Assembly (NCBI GenBank): GCA_018335195.1
Contig: JAGXKN010000001.1
Coordinates: forward strand, 124,001-188,000
Direction: 5' to 3'
Source: Desulfobacterales bacterium
GTDB taxonomy: Bacteria; Desulfobacterota; Desulfobacteria; Desulfobacterales; Desulfosalsimonadaceae
DNA length: 64,000 bases
The notes under the pieces are model-generated. The model saw nothing but the letters and a program-made list of their open reading frames with translations, made no database searches and had not been told where the DNA came from. Shown here piece after piece: positions 34,590 to 42,534 of this stretch. The position numbers and the translations under genes were made by a program. Numbering within the stretch: the first letter of the stretch is position 1; the number at the start of each line of letters is the position of its first letter.

Positions 34590-35774
34590 ATGCGCCTGAA
34601 ACTTCTTTTCTTCCCGGCGGCCCTGATCTGCCTGATGCTGGGGATCCACTACGCGGTCTTTAAAAGCTTCATGCATTTTTTCCAGATCAGCCGCCCGCAG
34701 GTGAAAATCAACCTTTACACGGCCATGGCGGTGTTGAGCTTTACCTTTATCACCGCGTTTATCGCCCTTCACTGGCGGGAAAACCTCTGGACGGTTGCCT
34801 ATTACAAGTTTGCAGCCGTGTGGACGGGCTTTGTGTTCCATTGCCTAGCCGCCGCTGCCGCGGCCTGGCTTTTGCTGGCAGCAGCCCGGATAACCGGGGC
34901 ACCGGTTTCCGCCAAAGCAATTGCCTCAACCACCTTGGCAATCGCGATATTGGGCACCGGATACGGCATGTGGGCCGCATTCCACCCGGCACTCCGGCAT
35001 GTGGCCGTGCCCGTTCAAAGCCTGCCGGAATCCTGGAAAAATACCACGCTCGTCCATATTTCGGATCTTCACCTGGGCCTATTTCATCAAAAGGCCTTTG
35101 CCGCCCGGGTAGTAAACCGGATCAACTCCCTGAACCCGGAACTGGTGCTGATCACGGGCGATCTGCTCGACGGCATGGGCGGGGCCTACGCAGAAAACGT
35201 CACACCCCTGGACAATCTCCGGGCCGCGCATGGCGTATTTTTTGTCACCGGGAATCATGAACACTACGTGGGCATTGACAAATCTCTTGCAATCATCGGC
35301 AAAACCCCGTTGCGCATACTGGACAATGAAGCCGTGAAAATTGCCGGCCTGGAAATCCTTGGCGTGAGCTACCCGGGACTTGCCGATCCTGCGGAAATCA
35401 AAAACCTGCAGCCACAAAAAGCACCGGGCAGCCTTCGCCTGGCCATGTTTCACACCCCCACGGAGATGGCGGAAAACAGCACCGACATGCAGCAACAGCA
35501 CAATGCCAACTACTGGCGGCCGAATACCGGGTATGAGCTGAATCAAAAGCTGGAAATAGATCTGCAGCTCTCCGGGCACACGCATCATGGCCAGGTGTTT
35601 CCCGTGAATTTGCTTACACGGATGCTTTACAAGGGCAGGGATTACGGCCTAGCAAAAATCAACGGATTTTATCTTTATACCTCCTGCGGTGTCGGCTCCT
35701 GGGGACCGCCCATGCGGAGCACGGGCCGCCCGGAGATTGCGGTGATTCGACTTGTGGAAAAAGCGCCGGAATGA
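34590..35774 (+). CDS. Membrane-anchored metallophosphoesterase
   Basis: 394 residues. Four hydrophobic segments occupy about residues 1-135, then a calcineurin-like phosphoesterase domain. Metal-site motifs are visible in order: VHISDLHLG (D-x-H), LITGDLLDG (GD), VTGNHEHYVG (GNHE), and LQLSGHTHHGQVFP (GHTHxGQ). This is the YkuE/YaeI-like class that acts on phospholipid-type substrates at the membrane. The ATG lies 33 bases after the PPC gene. The C-terminal part STGRPEIAVIRL is family-typical. Confidence 0.9.
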   Translation: MRLKLLFFPAALICLMLGIHYAVFKSFMHFFQISRPQVKINLYTAMAVLSFTFITAFIALHWRENLWTVAYYKFAAVWTGFVFHCLAAAAAAWLLLAAARITGAPVSAKAIASTTLAIAILGTGYGMWAAFHPALRHVAVPVQSLPESWKNTTLVHISDLHLGLFHQKAFAARVVNRINSLNPELVLITGDLLDGMGGAYAENVTPLDNLRAAHGVFFVTGNHEHYVGIDKSLAIIGKTPLRILDNEAVKIAGLEILGVSYPGLADPAEIKNLQPQKAPGSLRLAMFHTPTEMAENSTDMQQQHNANYWRPNTGYELNQKLEIDLQLSGHTHHGQVFPVNLLTRMLYKGRDYGLAKINGFYLYTSCGVGSWGPPMRSTGRPEIAVIRLVEKAPE

Positions 35775-35795
35775 TAAATTAAAAACTCATGGATC

Positions 35796-35889
35796 CGTAA
35801 AAAGCTGTTTATCCCGCTGGGGCGGTATTTTTGCAGAGAGGAAATCCGTAAGCACCTTGGCTGATCGGCGGCGCGAAAAAGGAGTTTCC
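35796..35889 (+). repeat. 95-bp dispersed repeat, copy A
   Basis: The stretch from CGTAAAAAGCTGTTTATCCC to AAAAAGGAGTTTCC recurs in reverse orientation at 50293-50392. The right part (35840-35882) is an identical run of about 43 bases beginning GGAAATCCGTAAGCACC. It contains a short dyad around CCCGCTGGGGCGG. It sits between the phosphoesterase stop and the DUF364 start, so it overlaps the likely promoter of the latter. Confidence 0.75.
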
Positions 35890-35939
35890 TTGAAAGTCAA
35901 TTTCTTCGCTCCGTGATCATTTTAAGCGCGGTTCACATC

Positions 35940-36695
35940 ATGAGTATTCAGCAACGCATCCAAGATCATTTGACAGCGTCGGCATCCGAAAACCGGATCG
36001 CGGACGTACGCATCGGGCTGGGGTATACCGCCGTGATGCTGGAAAACGCGCAGACCGGGGTGGCCTGCACCCCCATCGGGCATCTTCGCCCGAACTGCAC
36101 CGTTTTCCCGGGCATGCTGCCCCTGACCGGCCGGAAAGCCGACGAATTGCTGGCTTTTATGACCTCCGCGGATGCGCTTGAAACAGCCATCGGCCTGGCC
36201 ACTGCAAATGCGCTGGCAAACACCCCGGCCCCGGAGCACGACACCGGAGACGTGCTCAATGCGATCAATCTCGGCCCGGCCGACCATGTGGGCATGGTGG
36301 GCCACTTTGCCCCGCTGGTCAAAAATGTCCGGGATACCGGGGCGCGGCTTACCATATTCGAACAGATTGACACCCCTTCCGGGGCGCTGCAGCCGGCCGC
36401 AGAGATTCCAGACCAACTGCCAAAGTGCACGGTTTGCCTTTTCACAGCCACCTCGATTATCAACCACACGTTTGACAAAATTATCGATCAGGCATCCAAC
36501 TGCCGATCCGTAATCCTGCTGGGCGCATCCACGCCGCTGCTGCCCGGTCTGTTTACAGACTACCCGGTTACCGGGCTTTCGGGCGTGGTGGTGACCCATC
36601 CCGCCGAACTGCTGCACATTGTCAGCTGCGGCGGAGGTATGCGCAGGTTCAAGGGCGTAATCCAAAAAGTCAACCTTGCGGTCAGCAGACAATGA
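35940..36695 (+). CDS. DUF364 (putative heavy-metal chelation domain) protein
   Basis: 251 residues. The N-terminal part (DVRIGLGYTAVMLENAQTGV) corresponds to the DUF4213-like cap. The main domain has AIGLATANALA, VGMVGHFAPLVKNVRDTGAR, LFTATSIINHTFDKIID, VILLGASTPLLPGLF and SCGGGMRRFKGVIQKVNL, in the order of DUF364 proteins, which are often linked to metal or corrinoid chemistry. ATG 35940 is used; a GTG at 35913 would start in the repeat. Its stop overlaps the GNAT start as ATGA. Confidence 0.85.
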   Translation: MSIQQRIQDHLTASASENRIADVRIGLGYTAVMLENAQTGVACTPIGHLRPNCTVFPGMLPLTGRKADELLAFMTSADALETAIGLATANALANTPAPEHDTGDVLNAINLGPADHVGMVGHFAPLVKNVRDTGARLTIFEQIDTPSGALQPAAEIPDQLPKCTVCLFTATSIINHTFDKIIDQASNCRSVILLGASTPLLPGLFTDYPVTGLSGVVVTHPAELLHIVSCGGGMRRFKGVIQKVNLAVSRQ

Positions 36696-37195
36696 CGCAC
36701 CAATCCGAACCCCGGGCGGAACCCATCGAATACGGCCCCCTGCGGACGGGCGAGGAAAGAGCCGTGATCGAAATGGTCCTGTCGAGTTTTGAGGCCGCGA
36801 TTGCACCCCTGTATTCCAGCCAGGGGGTCGCGGAGTTTAAAAAATACGCCAGCCTCAAAGAAATAGCCTTTCGCTCCAGGTGCGCGCATTTTGTCTGCGT
36901 GGCCCGGCAGAACCGGGAGCCGGTGGGCATGATCGAAATCCGGGACCATCGCCACATCTCCATGTTTTTTGTCAAATCCGCATACCAGCACAAGGGCATC
37001 GGCCGGAAGCTCCTGGCATGCGCCCTTAACCGGTGCATACAGAAAAACCCGGAGCTGGCGGCGGTAACCGTCAATGCCTCCCCCAATGCAGTGCCCGCCT
37101 ACAGGCACCTGGGATTCATCCCGAATCCGCCGGAAAAAATCATTAACGGAATCCGCCACATTCCCATGCAGAAAAATCTCACCCGTGTTTGTTGA
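36692..37195 (+). CDS. GNAT-family N-acetyltransferase
   Basis: 167 residues. Acetyl-CoA-binding motif A is FFVKSAYQHKGIGRKLLACA (Q-x-x-G-I-G), followed by TVNASPNAVPAYRHLGFIPN, the usual motif B. The start ATG overlaps the DUF364 stop (ATGA), so translation is coupled. The acceptor is unknown. The next promoter begins at its last codons and leads to the peptide-maturation locus, so it is probably transcribed with DUF364 rather than with that locus. Confidence 0.88.
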   Translation: MTHQSEPRAEPIEYGPLRTGEERAVIEMVLSSFEAAIAPLYSSQGVAEFKKYASLKEIAFRSRCAHFVCVARQNREPVGMIEIRDHRHISMFFVKSAYQHKGIGRKLLACALNRCIQKNPELAAVTVNASPNAVPAYRHLGFIPNPPEKIINGIRHIPMQKNLTRVC

Positions 37196-37220
37196 CAGTC
37201 CTATCCCGGGCTGTTATATT
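37192..37220 (+). promoter_or_regulatory. Near-consensus sigma-70 promoter for peptide locus
   Basis: TTGACA (37192-37197), a 17-base spacer and TATATT (37215-37220). The -35 box is perfect and one base of the -10 box differs. It overlaps the GNAT stop codon and lies about 100 bases upstream of the tiny Cys-ended peptide gene. This is the best-looking promoter in the window. Confidence 0.7.
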
Positions 37221-37322
37221 AATTTTAACATCGCGAAGAACGCGATCGGCAGCCTGTGCGCTGTCAGAAATGCGGCTTTAATTGCCCGAATCAATCACTT
37301 TCACGAAGAAAGGAGGCCAATC

Positions 37323-37385
37323 ATGAAGATTCAAAAGGTCAGAAAAGCACCCACCGGTCTTTGCAAGTGTAAACGTTCCTGCTAG
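37323..37385 (+). CDS. 20-residue Cys-ended precursor-like peptide
   Basis: The whole product is MKIQKVRKAPTGLCKCKRSC: a basic leader-like half and a C-terminal core with cysteines at 14, 16 and 20. AAAGGAGG (37310-37317) lies six bases before the ATG, one of the strongest ribosome sites in the window. A near-consensus promoter stands upstream and a terminator-like hairpin downstream. Two radical SAM genes follow, so it is the obvious substrate candidate for a RiPP-type modification. From memory this resembles the tiny CbpA-type precursors beside CbpB radical SAM enzymes; not verified. Confidence 0.75.
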   Translation: MKIQKVRKAPTGLCKCKRSC

Positions 37386-37407
37386 AAGAAACCCTTTTTA
37401 ACACCCG

Positions 37408-37452
37408 GGCCTGTGTATGGACATTGATTTCCTGCACAGGCCATTTATTTTT
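37408..37452 (+). terminator. Hairpin between precursor peptide and maturation genes
   Basis: GGCCTGTG (37408-37415) and CACAGGCC (37435-37442) form an eight-base-pair stem with a 19-base loop, followed by ATTTATTTTTA. A partial terminator here would give many short peptide transcripts and fewer long maturase transcripts, a common RiPP arrangement. Confidence 0.6.
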
Positions 37453-37475
37453 ATGGGGGCAGCGCAGCATCTCAC

Positions 37476-37832
37476 ATGGATAAAGCCGATTTTCAGGACC
37501 GGATCTGCCGGCCCTACTGCATGTTTTTTGTCGAGGGCGAAAAAGAGGAAATGGCCTGCCTGGGCGCCCGGGTGGCCGAACGGCTGCTTGCCGCCGGCAG
37601 AATTGATGCCGCGCACGTAAATGCAGCAGAGAAAAACCGCTCAGTGTGGGAGGCGCGCAGGCAGGACCTGGGAGAAATCCTCTGCAAAAAATGCGATTTC
37701 CGGGCCGAAGACTGCGATTTTCAATCCCCGCAGCCCGCAGACGACCTGGAGCCCTGCGGCGGCTACATCGTGTTGGCCCATCTGCTGGAAAACCGCATAA
37801 TTGATCAGGCGGACATAGAAAACGTCTTATGA
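37476..37832 (+). CDS. Small seven-cysteine protein of the peptide locus
   Basis: 118 residues with cysteines at 11, 15, 28, 70, 73, 80 and 94. Two clusters stand out: RICRPYCMFFVEGEKEEMAC and ILCKKCDFRAEDCDF followed by EPCGGY. This spacing suggests an Fe-S or zinc site. No family is recognised with certainty. No convincing ribosome site precedes ATG 37476, so it may be poorly translated or coupled. Its last four bases (ATGA) overlap the start of the radical SAM gene, which ties it to maturation as a scaffold, electron carrier or substrate-binding partner. Confidence 0.78.
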   Translation: MDKADFQDRICRPYCMFFVEGEKEEMACLGARVAERLLAAGRIDAAHVNAAEKNRSVWEARRQDLGEILCKKCDFRAEDCDFQSPQPADDLEPCGGYIVLAHLLENRIIDQADIENVL

Positions 37833-38992
37833 ACGAAAACCACTGGCATGCGGCATATCTCCGGCTGGCCTCGCAGGCCGCGCTGAAAAAATTGGAAACG
37901 CCGTTTGTCTATCACACCGGCAGAGACGAGCTTTACGAAATCGACGAACGGGCCCTGAATTTTCTGCAGCAGTGCAACGGCACCCGCACCGGCGGCGAGC
38001 TCACGGACGAGGCCGAATTCGTGCAGTACTGCCTGGAAGAAGACATTCTGGAGGCCCTGGACCGGCCCGCGGAAATTCCCGTTTCCGTGGATGTGTGCGA
38101 TTGCCCCTCCCTTCGTTACCTTGAGCTCCACCTGCTGCACCAATGCAACCTCAGGTGCCGCCACTGCTACCTGGGACCGCCCGGCGCAGCGGAGATGCCG
38201 GTTTCCGATGCCGTGGACATCACCCGGCAGTTTGCCGAAAACGGCGGGCTGCGCCTGCTGATCTCCGGCGGCGAGCCCCTGCTCTACAAGCACCTGGCAG
38301 ATTTCCTCAACCAAACCCGGGGCCTTGGCATTCGCCGCATCCTGTTTACCAACGGCACCCTTGTGACACCGGAAAATGCGGACCGTCTGGATGCCGACGA
38401 AATCCAGTTCAGCATGGACGGATGGAAGGCCGGCCATGAACGCCTGCGGGGCGAAGGCACCTTTGACCAACTCCTGCGGGGCGTGCACGCGGCAAAGGAC
38501 GCGGGCATGGACATTTCCTTTTCCACCATGATCCACAGGGGCAACATCGACGAATTCGAACAAATGCGAAAGTTTATCGAAGATACCGGGGCCCTGGAAT
38601 GGGGCGTGGATATCCTGACGCTCACGGGATCGCTGGCAGAGCACCCGGATTTGTGCGTACCTGTTGAAACCGCCGCACCCTTGATGGAATATGCATACGG
38701 GGGCGGGTATCACGGGGCATCGGACGGGTACGCCTGCGGCCGCCACTTAATGGCGGTCATGCCGGATCGGCAGGCGGTCAAATGCGGATTTTACAGGGAT
38801 CGGCCCCTGGGGGATGCCGCCGGCAGCCTGGCCGCATGCTGGCGCAGAATGCCCCACATCCGCCTGGATGAGCTGGAATGCCGGGACTGCGAATACCTCC
38901 AGGAATGCCGCGGCGGCTGCCGTTTCCGGGCTTCGCATCCGCTTGCACCTGACCCGGCCATGTGCCGTCTGTTCGGGGTTGAGCATGAATAG
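37829..38992 (+). CDS. Radical SAM/SPASM-like protein with PqqD-like N-domain
   Basis: 387 residues. Residues about 1-85 (YEIDERALNFLQQCNGTRTG, GELTDEAEFVQYCLEEDILE) look like a PqqD/RRE domain that binds leader peptides. The radical SAM [4Fe-4S] motif is CNLRCRHC (C106, C110, C113), followed by LISGGEPLL and ILFTNGTLVT. The C-terminal part has CGRHLMAVMPDRQAVKCGFY and ECRDCEYLQECRGGCRF, a SPASM-type auxiliary-cluster pattern. Overlaps the upstream gene by ATGA and the next radical SAM gene by eight bases. Probable peptide-modifying enzyme. The exact chemistry cannot be assigned. Confidence 0.9.
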   Translation: MNENHWHAAYLRLASQAALKKLETPFVYHTGRDELYEIDERALNFLQQCNGTRTGGELTDEAEFVQYCLEEDILEALDRPAEIPVSVDVCDCPSLRYLELHLLHQCNLRCRHCYLGPPGAAEMPVSDAVDITRQFAENGGLRLLISGGEPLLYKHLADFLNQTRGLGIRRILFTNGTLVTPENADRLDADEIQFSMDGWKAGHERLRGEGTFDQLLRGVHAAKDAGMDISFSTMIHRGNIDEFEQMRKFIEDTGALEWGVDILTLTGSLAEHPDLCVPVETAAPLMEYAYGGGYHGASDGYACGRHLMAVMPDRQAVKCGFYRDRPLGDAAGSLAACWRRMPHIRLDELECRDCEYLQECRGGCRFRASHPLAPDPAMCRLFGVEHE

Positions 38993-39920
38993 CCCGGCAT
39001 TTCAGGCACCCGCATACATCCAGTTCTACCCCACCCTGCGCTGCAACATGTCCTGCAGCTTCTGCTTTAACCGCAGCCTGCCGGAGATCCCGGACGCAGA
39101 CCCGGCGGACGTGAAGAAAATGGCATCCGCGTGCAGCCGGCTGGGCATTGAACACATCGACTTTCTCGGCGGAGAGCCTACCCTGCACCCCGAGCTTGCC
39201 CGGATAGTTGCCGCCATTTGCCAACACGGACTTCAGGTCACCCTGAGTTCCAACGGCACCCGGCCGGAGGCGCTCTGGGCGCTTTCCCGGCGTTTTCCCG
39301 AAAACTCGGTGCGTATCGGCATATCCGTAAACAGCGACACCCTGCCCCCAGGCCTTGATGCGTACATCCGGGACCGCCGCCCGATTTTAAAAAGCGTGTT
39401 CACCCATTCCGATTTCCTCCCCGGGGCCTGCGAAACCTATATCGGCACGACGGGGATCGAATACTGCCTGATTTACAGGGATGCCGCAGATGCCGCGGAT
39501 CTTGAAAACTGCCAGCCCTTTGACGTGTTCTGCGATCACCTTGAAACGCTGCAGGCGCAGCATCCGGACGTAAACGGGATCTTTTGCGGCGGATTCGTAC
39601 CGGATACAAAAAACACGCCGGAACTTGCAGAAACCCGCTGTCCGGCCGGCACCACCAAGCTCTCGGTACTGCCCGACGGCTCGGTCTATCCCTGCTACCT
39701 GTTTTTCCGGTACCCGGAGTTCTGCCTGGGCAATATCCTGGAACACGACTTTTCCGGGATATGGAACCATCCAACGCTCGATTTCTTCCGGCGGTTTTCC
39801 GGCAACCCCTGTCCGAGACAAACCTGCCGGCTTCACCCGCAATGCCACGGCGGGTGTCCGGCCATGAGCTATCTGCACCAGGGGCGGCTGAATGCCCCGG
39901 ATCCGCGCTGCGTGCGGTAA
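38985..39920 (+). CDS. Second radical SAM/SPASM protein
   Basis: 311 residues. The radical SAM motif is CNMSCSFC (C20, C24, C27), with FLGGEPTLHPELARI and LSSNGTRPEA downstream. The C-terminal SPASM domain has RCPAGTTKLSVLPDGSVYPC, EFCLGNILEHDFSGIW, then PCPRQTCRLHPQCHGGCPAM, consistent with one or two auxiliary Fe-S clusters. ATG 38985 lies inside the end of the preceding gene (eight-base overlap). It has no separate leader-binding domain, so it may depend on its partner's PqqD-like domain. Confidence 0.9.
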   Translation: MNSPAFQAPAYIQFYPTLRCNMSCSFCFNRSLPEIPDADPADVKKMASACSRLGIEHIDFLGGEPTLHPELARIVAAICQHGLQVTLSSNGTRPEALWALSRRFPENSVRIGISVNSDTLPPGLDAYIRDRRPILKSVFTHSDFLPGACETYIGTTGIEYCLIYRDAADAADLENCQPFDVFCDHLETLQAQHPDVNGIFCGGFVPDTKNTPELAETRCPAGTTKLSVLPDGSVYPCYLFFRYPEFCLGNILEHDFSGIWNHPTLDFFRRFSGNPCPRQTCRLHPQCHGGCPAMSYLHQGRLNAPDPRCVR

Positions 39921-39943
39921 AACAGAAAAACAGAGGAGAATCC

Positions 39944-40285
39944 ATGCATATGTTTATCAATCTGCGGAAACAGGCCGAAAAATCCGAGGACGGGGAAATC
40001 GTGTTCGGCGCCGACCATACGGGCAGCCACGCCTGCTACATGATTTACGGCATCCTGCAGCCCGGGGAAAAAGATCGCCTGATCAAGCCCGGCCACGGTC
40101 ACGAGGAAATGGTTCTGGCAACAAATGCGACCTTACAGGTCACCGGAGCGGTAACCGGAGATCTGAACCCGGGCGATGCCTTTCACATTGCAGAAGACCA
40201 GACCGCGTTTCTTGAAAATTCCGGGGACAGCGAAGCCGTGTATGTCATCGCCGGCGGTCACTCCGAACACGGCCACGGGCATTGA
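39944..40285 (+). CDS. Small cupin-like protein with His-rich tail
   Basis: 113 residues, single cupin-like barrel: CYMIYGILQPGEKDRLIKPG, HGHEEMVLATNATLQVTG (H-x-H...E), LNPGDAFHIAEDQTAFLEN and a second-strand VYVIAGGHSEHGHGH. The tail holds four His in seven residues and may bind metal. AGAGGAG precedes the ATG; the gap to the second radical SAM gene is 23 bases, so it is the likely end of the maturation operon. Its role could be metal handling or a late oxidation or isomerisation of the peptide; that is inference. Confidence 0.82.
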   Translation: MHMFINLRKQAEKSEDGEIVFGADHTGSHACYMIYGILQPGEKDRLIKPGHGHEEMVLATNATLQVTGAVTGDLNPGDAFHIAEDQTAFLENSGDSEAVYVIAGGHSEHGHGH

Positions 40286-40343
40286 CGGTCACTGAAAAAT
40301 CTGTCATCTGTTGAACCCATTATAAAACGAGGATCATGCGAAA

Positions 40344-41597
40344 ATGCCCGCCAGCCTGCATCTGCATAACACCATGACCCGGAAAAAGGACCAGTTTATC
40401 CCCAGGAAACCCGGCCGGCCGGTAAAAATGTTCACCTGCGGCCCCTCCATATACAACTGGCCGCATATCGGAAATTACCGAACATTTCTTTTCGAGGACA
40501 TTCTCCAGCGCTTCCTGGAATATCTCGGATACCGGGTGGATCGGCTGATCAACTTCACAGACATGGAGGACAAGGCCATTGCCCGGGCCAACGAACTGGG
40601 CATTTCCCTGGAGGACCTGACCCGGCCGGTGGCAGATAGTTTTATCCGGGACTGCGGCGCGCTCAACATTTACCTGCCGCAGACCATCGCCCGGTCCACC
40701 ACCAGCGTGGAACAGGCCGTGGACCTGATCGGCCGGCTCATGGAAAAAAACATCGCCTACAGGCACGGGCGCGATATTTTCTACGATCCCCTGAAATTCA
40801 AGGGTTTCGGCAGACTCTACGGCCTGGATATGCGAAAATGGCCGAAAAAACGGATCCGCTTCCGAAAAGACACCTATCCGGGTCAGCGCTGGAATATGGG
40901 GGACTTTATCCTGTGGAAGGGCTGGCGGCCCGGGGACGGTGAAATCTTCTGGGACACCGAACTGGGCAGAGGCCGGCCGGCCTGGAACGTCCAGGATGCG
41001 GCCATGATCGCCGGGTACCTGGGAGAGGAACTCGATATCTGCTGCGGCGGCATTGACAACCTGTACCGGCATCACGACTACAATATCGCGGTAATCGAGG
41101 GCGTATCCGGAAAGGAACTTGCCCCATTCTGGGCGCATTCCCGGCATGTGAGCATCAACGGCGCAAAAATGTCCAAGAGCCGGGGAAATATCGTGTACGT
41201 GCGCGAGCTGATGGACAAGGGATATGCGGCCCGCCACATCCGGTTTTTCCTGGTTTACGGGCATTACCGGAGCCGGCGCGACCTCACCGGGGACCGGATC
41301 CACCAGGCCCGCGGCAAAATCGATACCTTCCGGGAAATGGTCCGAAATTTAAGGACCCGGGGCGTGGGAGACAAGTTCGCTTCTGCAGCGGCAAAACCCC
41401 TAATCGATCGGCTGCAGCCGGATTTTGAAAATCGCATGAACGACGACCTGGACGTAAAGGCCGCCTTTGACGGCACGTACAACACCGTTTCGCAGCTCAT
41501 GGACATGGCCCTGGGCGGAGATCTGGGCACCGCGGACATTGAAGCCGTCAAACAGCGACTGGGAAGAATTGACAGCGTGCTGCAGGTCCTTGTATAA
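40344..41597 (+). CDS. Cysteinyl-tRNA synthetase-like class I ligase with altered zinc site
   Basis: 417 residues. HIGH-type motif PHIGN (residues 40-44) and KMSKS (275-279) are intact, and the fold tracks CysRS. Compared with E. coli CysRS zinc ligands Cys28, Cys209, His234 and Glu238, Cys32 and the His pair 243/244 remain, but the Cys209 position is Asp218 (WNVQDAAM for WHIECSAM) and the Glu238 position is Asn247 (RHHDYN). His224 of DIHGGG is Cys (DICCGG). The C-terminal region is shorter than usual. It is likely a paralogue with changed amino-acid choice or a non-tRNA ligase. It lies 58 bases after the cupin gene. Confidence 0.85.
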   Translation: MPASLHLHNTMTRKKDQFIPRKPGRPVKMFTCGPSIYNWPHIGNYRTFLFEDILQRFLEYLGYRVDRLINFTDMEDKAIARANELGISLEDLTRPVADSFIRDCGALNIYLPQTIARSTTSVEQAVDLIGRLMEKNIAYRHGRDIFYDPLKFKGFGRLYGLDMRKWPKKRIRFRKDTYPGQRWNMGDFILWKGWRPGDGEIFWDTELGRGRPAWNVQDAAMIAGYLGEELDICCGGIDNLYRHHDYNIAVIEGVSGKELAPFWAHSRHVSINGAKMSKSRGNIVYVRELMDKGYAARHIRFFLVYGHYRSRRDLTGDRIHQARGKIDTFREMVRNLRTRGVGDKFASAAAKPLIDRLQPDFENRMNDDLDVKAAFDGTYNTVSQLMDMALGGDLGTADIEAVKQRLGRIDSVLQVLV

Positions 41598-41619
41598 TAA
41601 CAGGCAGCTCCCGTTCGGA

Positions 41620-42447
41620 CTATTTTCCCTTGAGCTTCATCAGCTCCTGCCATTCCGGCCGCTCCAGGAAACTGCCGGCCACGTTTTGCTCCATTTCCAG
41701 GAACAACTGCCAGGGCACGGCAAAGGTCATCACGTCGTCCTTGAGCTGGCGCCTGACCGACACCCGGGCCGAAATGTCGCTCATGCCCATTACGGCCCGG
41801 GGACATCCGGAGCGGGCCTCGCGAAACGGGTAAATCCCGATGGTCTGGCAGCCGGCAGCATAGGGAAAGATCACGTTTTCGTTGCCCTCGCGGTGATAAT
41901 TGGCCAGGATGGTCAAAGCCGAAATCTGGTCCATGTCAGCCAGGAAGACCACCACCTCGGGTGTCTGCAGACCCTGCGGATCAATGCCGGAAAGCGGGGC
42001 AAAGGTCACGTACGGATATTCGATATCCATGATGGGCAGGTCGGCAATAAAGCTTTTCACCTTTTCCGGGGAGGCCACGTAGCGCTCGCCTTCCAGGAAA
42101 TTGTCCATGAACCCGCCGCGCACGTAAGGCTTTATGGATTCGGCCACCTGCCTTCCGGTCTCCCACTGCCGGTTGCCGACGGAAAGAAAGTAACAAAACC
42201 CCGACTCGCCGCCGGGAAAATTTTCGTACTGGTTGCCGAAACCCAGGCCCACACCGCCGCCGAAACAGCCGAAGGTTTCCCGGTCAAACACGGCAGTGTC
42301 GCCTTTTGCCGCCCGCACCAGCATAAACATCACGCATCCCCATTTTCCGGGCTTGAACTGCCGGGCATCCTCCGGCTTCTGCCCGGCAAAAACGATGGCC
42401 ACGGGCGCGTATCTGCATCCGATGGCCTCAGCAATCCGGCTTTCCAT
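41620..42447 (-). CDS. DUF169 family protein
   Basis: 275 residues. Typical DUF169 marks are RYAPVAIVFAGQKPEDARQF near the start, then a Gly-rich GCFGGGVGLGFGNQYENFPG. These are followed by KPYVRGGFMDNFLEGERYVA, PEVVVFLADMDQISALTILA and FPYAAGCQTIGIYPF, with a final MGMSDISARVSVRRQLKDDV. It has several conserved cysteines and may bind a metal or cluster; the family has no settled function. Convergent with the CysRS-like gene, 22 bases apart, with no clear hairpin between. Confidence 0.87.
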   Translation of the reverse strand: MESRIAEAIGCRYAPVAIVFAGQKPEDARQFKPGKWGCVMFMLVRAAKGDTAVFDRETFGCFGGGVGLGFGNQYENFPGGESGFCYFLSVGNRQWETGRQVAESIKPYVRGGFMDNFLEGERYVASPEKVKSFIADLPIMDIEYPYVTFAPLSGIDPQGLQTPEVVVFLADMDQISALTILANYHREGNENVIFPYAAGCQTIGIYPFREARSGCPRAVMGMSDISARVSVRRQLKDDVMTFAVPWQLFLEMEQNVAGSFLERPEWQELMKLKGK

Positions 42448-42534
42448 ATCCGTCCTCCCGTAATTGTTTGTCTGTTCCGTCTTTTCCCTGCCCTCTGATT
42501 TAACCTCAAATGCCCGGGATTGTCAAAAAAACCC

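Follow-up and report, generated by a model that had tools for sequence, protein, structure and literature searches.

A 20-residue cysteine-ended peptide that travels with a radical SAM enzyme: a candidate undescribed RiPP-type system in Desulfobacterota

What might be the role of an open reading frame (ORF) of 20 codons that ends in three closely spaced cysteines and stands before a small group of enzyme genes? The locus that raises this question lies in a stretch of 64,000 nucleotides (the window) of contig JAGXKN010000001.1 from a Desulfobacterales bacterium (assembly GCA_018335195.1). The peptide gene is followed by genes for a small protein with seven cysteines (P2), two radical S-adenosylmethionine (SAM) enzymes (rSAM1 and rSAM2) and a small cupin-like protein. 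A reading of this DNA from sequence only had proposed a ribosomally synthesised and post-translationally modified peptide (RiPP), and the elements it described are all present: a near-consensus promoter, a 20-codon gene with a good ribosome site, a hairpin, the seven-cysteine protein, an ATGA overlap, an eight-base overlap and a cupin with a histidine tail. We consider it fairly likely that the locus encodes a RiPP-type system not described before: rSAM1 would act on the CKCxxSC end of the 20-residue peptide, and the product would be cofactor-like or metal-binding. No description of this system appeared among the papers listed by searches of the open-licence PubMed Central literature; peptide motifs gave no paper, GeoRSP a single unrelated one, and word combinations none that describes it.

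The evidence that carries this reading is the co-occurrence of the peptide with rSAM1. We used 395 genomes spread over the phylum, in which rSAM1 was called at E<=1e-40 from the four best candidates per genome. A peptide profile built from 24 rows matched, at E<=1e-3, 37 of the 38 genomes with rSAM1 and none of the 357 others. The Fisher p value of 2.5e-51 treats the genomes as independent and overstates the precision, because they are not independent draws. Homologous enzymes without the peptide, which the sequence-only reading had named as the finding that would speak against it, are therefore not what is seen for rSAM1. The 38th genome (G119) holds a full-length peptide at E 0.015, and the same contig ends in a piece of rSAM1. 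At E<=1 the profile gives many short matches (113 of the 395 genomes), and outside the 38 the lowest E value is 0.0077. The profile rows were largely drawn from the same genomes, and 16 of the 38 contributed no row. For 12 rSAM1 genomes with neither a row nor a peptide seen earlier, the peptide was found at E<=1e-3 in 11, two of them identical to a row, the remaining genome being G119.

Closer to the window, the rSAM1 query matched 13 of 60 near-relative genomes, the window's own included, and the peptide is found at all 13 loci; at one of them (L018) a contig edge leaves its last 15 residues only. The seven named relatives are metagenome-assembled genomes labelled Desulfobacteraceae, Desulfobacterales or Proteobacteria. 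A second sample covered 21 genomes of one order, 11 of them new. Here the peptide was found in nine of the ten new genomes with rSAM1 and not in the one without; the tenth (G449) is 71% complete and its rSAM1 is truncated. Judged from these sequences, the locus has one mark of a radical SAM-type RiPP, a short putative precursor gene tied to a modifying enzyme.

Comparative sequence evidence also indicates that the ORF encoding MKIQKVRKAPTGLCKCKRSC is a real gene under selection. Without any motif filter, the profile gave 39 hits within the fetched stretches (the peptides of G312 and G103 lay outside and were seen separately), and 38 of these have exactly 20 residues from ATG to stop, with 33 distinct sequences. 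M1, I3, K5, C14, K15, C16 and C20 are unchanged in the 38 peptides, position 6 is Val or Ile and position 8 Lys or Arg; Gly12 is found in 24 and Ser19 in 31 of the distinct peptides, with the caveat that the profile itself is biased toward such sequences. A set of 43 peptides was collected with an expression that demanded I3, K5 and CxCxxxC spacing at a length of 17-22 residues, so this set cannot prove these features invariant. The ratio of non-synonymous to synonymous differences (pN/pS) is 0.12 over all codons in the close set and 0.33 overall. At positions that the expression did not fix it is 0.23 (12 close sequences) and 0.51 (49 sequences). By the all-codon count, residues 2-11 have a ratio of 0.45 and residues 12-20 one of 0.21, which is consistent with a leader followed by a core. 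The three cysteines, which the sequence-only reading took to be the modified residues, belong to the conserved and probably modified part.

A short ORF with three cysteine codons directly before a conserved terminator-like hairpin and enzyme genes could also be a regulatory leader, which would make transcription of P2 and rSAM1 depend on the cysteine supply through attenuation. However, selection is still seen when the cysteine codons are left out (pN/pS 0.17 in the close set, 0.42 overall) and, as described, at the positions that the expression left free. The position of the gene speaks more directly. Relative to rSAM1 in the 38 genomes, it lies upstream in 25, downstream in nine and on another contig in two, and in one single-contig genome it is 21 kb away (G119 is unscored). 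Two of the nine genomes with a downstream peptide hold further copies elsewhere, and additional copies are found in G412, G369 and G313. A gene that can be upstream, downstream or unlinked is not an attenuator leader, and its placement speaks strongly for a product that works in trans. Position thus largely refutes the leader explanation, which we regard as very improbable. In G369, two copies of the same peptide MSIKKVEKKMRGTCKCKVSC flank a methyltransferase-like gene and a cupin (L109), and a third, deviant copy is found on a separate contig (L118:9791-9844).

The peptide gene is preceded in many loci by a promoter-like site of its own, and in close relatives it is followed by a terminator-like hairpin; the peptide could therefore be produced in excess over the enzymes. 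In the window the promoter-like site starts at the end of the GNAT gene that precedes it. A scan of 7 kb gave four such sites against 3.3 expected from shuffles, which makes it weak evidence alone. Exact TTGACA is the best -35 element in 25 of 47 upstream regions, being the best of a search in which close relatives are not independent; these 25 include the peptide copies in L106 and L117, whose stretches hold no rSAM1. A motif scan did not list the hairpin, because the loop exceeds what that scan can detect. When 15 loci are aligned, the hairpin is seen to be kept: five of its 10 predicted pairs have changes on both sides, and some pairs are broken. A known RNA family was rejected, with no Rfam match at the gathering score over 35500-42500. 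Wide mobile spread was also rejected, as no plasmid match at E<=1e-20 and no relative in the viral collection was found.

The properties of rSAM1 suggest what may happen to the peptide. In 46 sequences C106, C110 and C113 (CX3CX2C) are invariant, as are C303, C319, C351, C354, C360, C364 and C379, seven cysteines that we take to be the SPASM pattern. The AlphaFold2 model of rSAM1 (mean predicted local distance difference test score 93.1) matches SkfB (Z 26.9, 325 residues, 4.9 A) and SuiB (Z 25.1, 354 residues, 4.0 A). Together with CteB these RiPP maturases lead the structural matches, followed by viperins, anSME and PqqE. Sequence matches in the PDB include SkfB (7.1e-23) and PqqE (7e-19), and in PADLOC the radical SAM domain gives nothing beyond weak matches of viperin type. 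Among the 25 of 73 NCBIfam families listed, none matches rSAM1 above its cut-off. By its cysteine pattern, rSAM1 has the radical SAM and SPASM signature of a RiPP maturase. The proposal that the peptide is the substrate of a SPASM-type radical SAM enzyme, with an N-terminal domain that may resemble the RiPP recognition element (RRE), is supported.

The likeness of rSAM1 to SkfB and CteB raises the question whether a bacteriocin or signal peptide of the sactipeptide or ranthipeptide type might be made and secreted. Bacteriocin cores are usually variable, and sactipeptide and ranthipeptide precursors are longer, with products that are mostly secreted. Here the length is fixed and the core is near-constant over many families. 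Furthermore, maps of 53 neighbourhoods, the window's included, in which gene clusters were scanned through one representative each, show no recurring family of exporters, proteases or immunity proteins. A secreted product therefore seems improbable to us. The SkfB-type synthases, whose order of RRE, radical SAM and SPASM or twitch domain (PMC8326336) rSAM1 appears to share, are the best match to rSAM1 in both structure and sequence, but here the enzyme has a seven-cysteine partner and a putative precursor fixed at 20 residues.

Which modification would rSAM1 carry out? Phe, Trp and Tyr are absent from all 34 peptides outside a second class, described below, and this argues against aromatic carbon-carbon crosslinks and for cysteine chemistry. 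Together with the chemistry of SkfB and CteB (PMC8326336), it suggests by analogy that a thioether is probably formed on the CKCxxSC end. The RRE-like domain would bind the N-terminal MKIxKV segment, rSAM1 would cleave SAM to the 5'-deoxyadenosyl radical, and this could abstract hydrogen within the C-terminal GLCKCxxSC segment, at K15 or positions 17-19. A cysteine held at the SPASM cluster might then close the thioether. Peptides of the second class start with MTI, occur in family f37 and are accompanied by a shortened P2. In seven f37 stretches we find a weakly ATP-grasp-like gene (Pfam matches below cut-off), which adjoins the peptide in six (L116, L124, L128, L130, L131 and L108). The nine MTI-class peptides contain neither Asp nor Glu, so the carboxylate at the C-terminus would be the only target for such an enzyme.

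As judged from its sequences, P2 is the steady partner of rSAM1. Its gene overlaps the start of rSAM1 by ATGA in the window, and the two form a single open frame in 10 of the 38 genomes. With up to 11 candidates scored per genome, as also for the cupin, the P2 profile matched 28 of the 38 rSAM1 genomes at E<=1e-5. In the other 10, a looser search within the fetched stretches found a shortened P2 before rSAM1 (weakest E 0.0096). With its conserved cysteines, P2 would most likely serve as an Fe-S electron-transfer or peptide-handling subunit. It has no NCBIfam match at E<=1 and no convincing structural match (best Foldseek E 2.3; best VIA Z 2.5 over 79 residues at 3.8 A); this is no proof of a new fold. 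P2 relatives in stretches without rSAM1 (L144-L149) stand alone, some of them beside what by eye appears to be an RluA-type pseudouridine synthase; these relatives appear to form a wider family of small cysteine proteins. In G168, which has no peptide match at E<=1, one sequence resembles, by eye, a decayed P2-rSAM1 fusion (L150:5486-5869), and tblastn with rSAM1 gave nothing on this stretch at E<=0.01.

The near-constant length and sequence across families, together with the lack of a recurring exporter or protease family in the maps, suggest that the mature product probably stays inside the cell, as a peptide that resembles a cofactor or binds metal. A more specific version is that rSAM1 and P2 make, in bacteria of this phylum, an undescribed cofactor that is comparable to pyrroloquinoline quinone (PQQ) or mycofactocin but based on cysteines, and that would serve as a thiol redox carrier or a metal-holding prosthetic group; this we put forward tentatively, as a possibility short of an even chance. 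Alternatively, the peptide might be a metallothionein-like metal ligand whose metal binding is tuned by the radical SAM enzyme, with the cupin delivering or sensing the metal. The CxCxxxC spacing, the constant K15 between cysteines and the richness in Lys and Arg would suit such a ligand, CKCxxSC presumably resembles metallothionein motifs, and the cupin carries GHEE, GGH and a histidine tail. However, no metal transporter or sensor recurs in the maps with their one scanned representative per cluster: the five loci near BtuF/CbiZ-type genes belong to a single genus, and the five near ArsP-type genes to a single family. We consider this metallothionein-like reading rather unlikely. In the RiPP-type system favoured here, the cupin could act in a later step or bind metal, and its homologues are enriched with rSAM1 (24 of 38 genomes vs 12 of 357 others), three of the 24 having it on a contig apart from rSAM1.

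Several points weigh against this reading. The genome counts come from one phylum only, and scoring four candidates per genome may have missed genomes with rSAM1. The 39th profile hit, which is the third G369 copy, lacks an ATG and is altered at position 19 (S19), and eight of the nine MTI-class peptides do contain one Phe. The Pfam PqqD and SPASM models do not match rSAM1, and most structural matches span residues 91-385 only. The RRE assignment therefore rests on few alignments (those with SkfB and SuiB start at model residues 15 and 10) and on secondary structure, the N-domain being predicted as strands followed by helices. P2 relatives are found in seven of the 357 genomes without rSAM1. 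For the cupin, besides the 12 genomes that have it without rSAM1, 14 of the 38 with rSAM1 have no match at E<=1e-8, and family f37 includes nine such rSAM1 genomes. No consumer protein was found. Finally, the modification may be an epimerisation or another cysteine change instead of a thioether.

How does the locus compare with known systems? In PQQ biosynthesis (PqqA, PqqD and PqqE), a precursor of about 20 residues is served by an RRE and a SPASM enzyme. The structure of PqqE matches rSAM1, but here the peptides outside the MTI class have no Tyr and the RRE-like domain is fused to the enzyme; against the PqqE model rSAM1 and rSAM2 score 59.2 and 53.2 bits, under a cut-off of 381.35, so membership was rejected. 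GeoRSP, in which we take radical SAM/SPASM proteins of related bacteria to have a small partner, had been suggested as a possible class, and this did not hold, with GeoRSP_rSAM scores of 55.5 and 59.7 against 400 bits. As to CbpA and CbpB, the other suggestion, the 20-residue peptide is short for HMMER and has no NCBIfam match at E<=1, and the CbpB model is absent among the 25 of 73 families listed for rSAM1. In mycofactocin, MftB is presumably the small partner. Membership there was rejected at 61.3 (rSAM1) and 70.1 (rSAM2) vs 265 bits, and the peptide here ends in CxCxxxC. To our knowledge, peptide-derived cofactors are few. The mycofactocin system (MftA/MftB/MftC) shares a strikingly conserved small peptide with an invariant C-terminus and a PqqE-like radical SAM partner (PMC3023750), and it was from a pattern of the kind seen here, in which one maturase goes with a precursor that stays at 20 residues in many families, that mycofactocin was first recognised. 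A text search of the RRE-Finder paper (PMC7470986) gave neither GeoRSP nor words beginning with Desulfo. With a tiny peptide and a core of two or three further genes, the chemistry is directly testable in vitro. An ORF this short is easily missed by gene callers, and the system may therefore be unannotated in many genomes.

Table 1. Coordinates in the window of the peptide gene, its flanking signals and the genes that follow.
Feature	Position	Strand	Basis
Promoter-like TTGACA-17-TATATT of the peptide gene	37192..37220	+	11/12 consensus, TG-extended
Ribosome site AAAGGAGG	37309..37316	+	Sequence; purine-rich sites precede many homologues
Putative 20-residue precursor peptide MKIQKVRKAPTGLCKCKRSC	37323..37385	+	ATG 37323 to TAG 37385; co-occurrence with rSAM1
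Terminator-like hairpin GGCCTGTG/CACAGGCC 3' of the peptide gene	37408..37442	+	T-rich tail to 37454
P2, seven-cysteine protein, rSAM1 partner	37476..37832	+	44-row alignment; fusions with rSAM1 (10/38 genomes)
rSAM1, predicted peptide maturase with RRE-like N-domain, radical SAM and SPASM-type parts	37829..38992	+	Cysteines; SkfB, SuiB and PqqE neighbours
rSAM2, second radical SAM/SPASM protein, lineage-specific accessory	38985..39920	+	Pfam Radical_SAM and SPASM
Small cupin-like protein with GHEE, GGH and His-rich tail	39944..40285	+	Homologues in 27/52 other stretches
CysRS-like paralogue, 417 aa, follows the cupin	40344..41597	+	301.7 bits vs cut-off 340

The sequence-only reading had treated the two radical SAM enzymes as a unit. 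This stands for rSAM1 and fails for rSAM2, which starts at ATG 38985, eight bases before the end of rSAM1. Among the 52 other stretches, 10 have clear homologues of rSAM2, two of these being partial; all 10 come from the family of the window, and L119 gives one further weak match. As it is confined to this family, we regard rSAM2 as an accessory and not as part of the core. The window's cupin, which ends in GGHSEHGHGH, has no Pfam match, and a homologue matches Cupin_2 just below cut-off.

The neighbouring genes gave no lead to the function of the system. Among them, the commonest cluster beyond the core is a mixed ABC ATPase cluster in eight of the 53 stretches. The BtuF/CbiZ-type genes mentioned above lie with ABC genes upstream of the peptide. 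Flavin oxidoreductases beside the peptide in two families split into two subfamilies, CoA-disulfide-reductase-like and NirB-like, and a dedicated reductase was dropped for this reason. The paralogue of cysteinyl-tRNA synthetase (CysRS) that follows the cupin is confined to the window's genus (L059, L060 and L063, the last cut by a contig end, of the 52 stretches). It keeps HIGN and KMSKS and is missing the C-terminal part, and two of what we take to be the four zinc ligands of E. coli CysRS are replaced. The window's genome has two further CysRS matches over cut-off. On contig C14 of this genome (L137), a 797-aa ORF resembles, by eye, a cysteine synthase joined to a CysRS-like domain that lacks KMSKS. 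A perfect TTGACA-18-TATAAT (41569-41598, plus strand) lies where the CysRS-like gene of the window ends, ahead of a minus-strand DUF169 gene.

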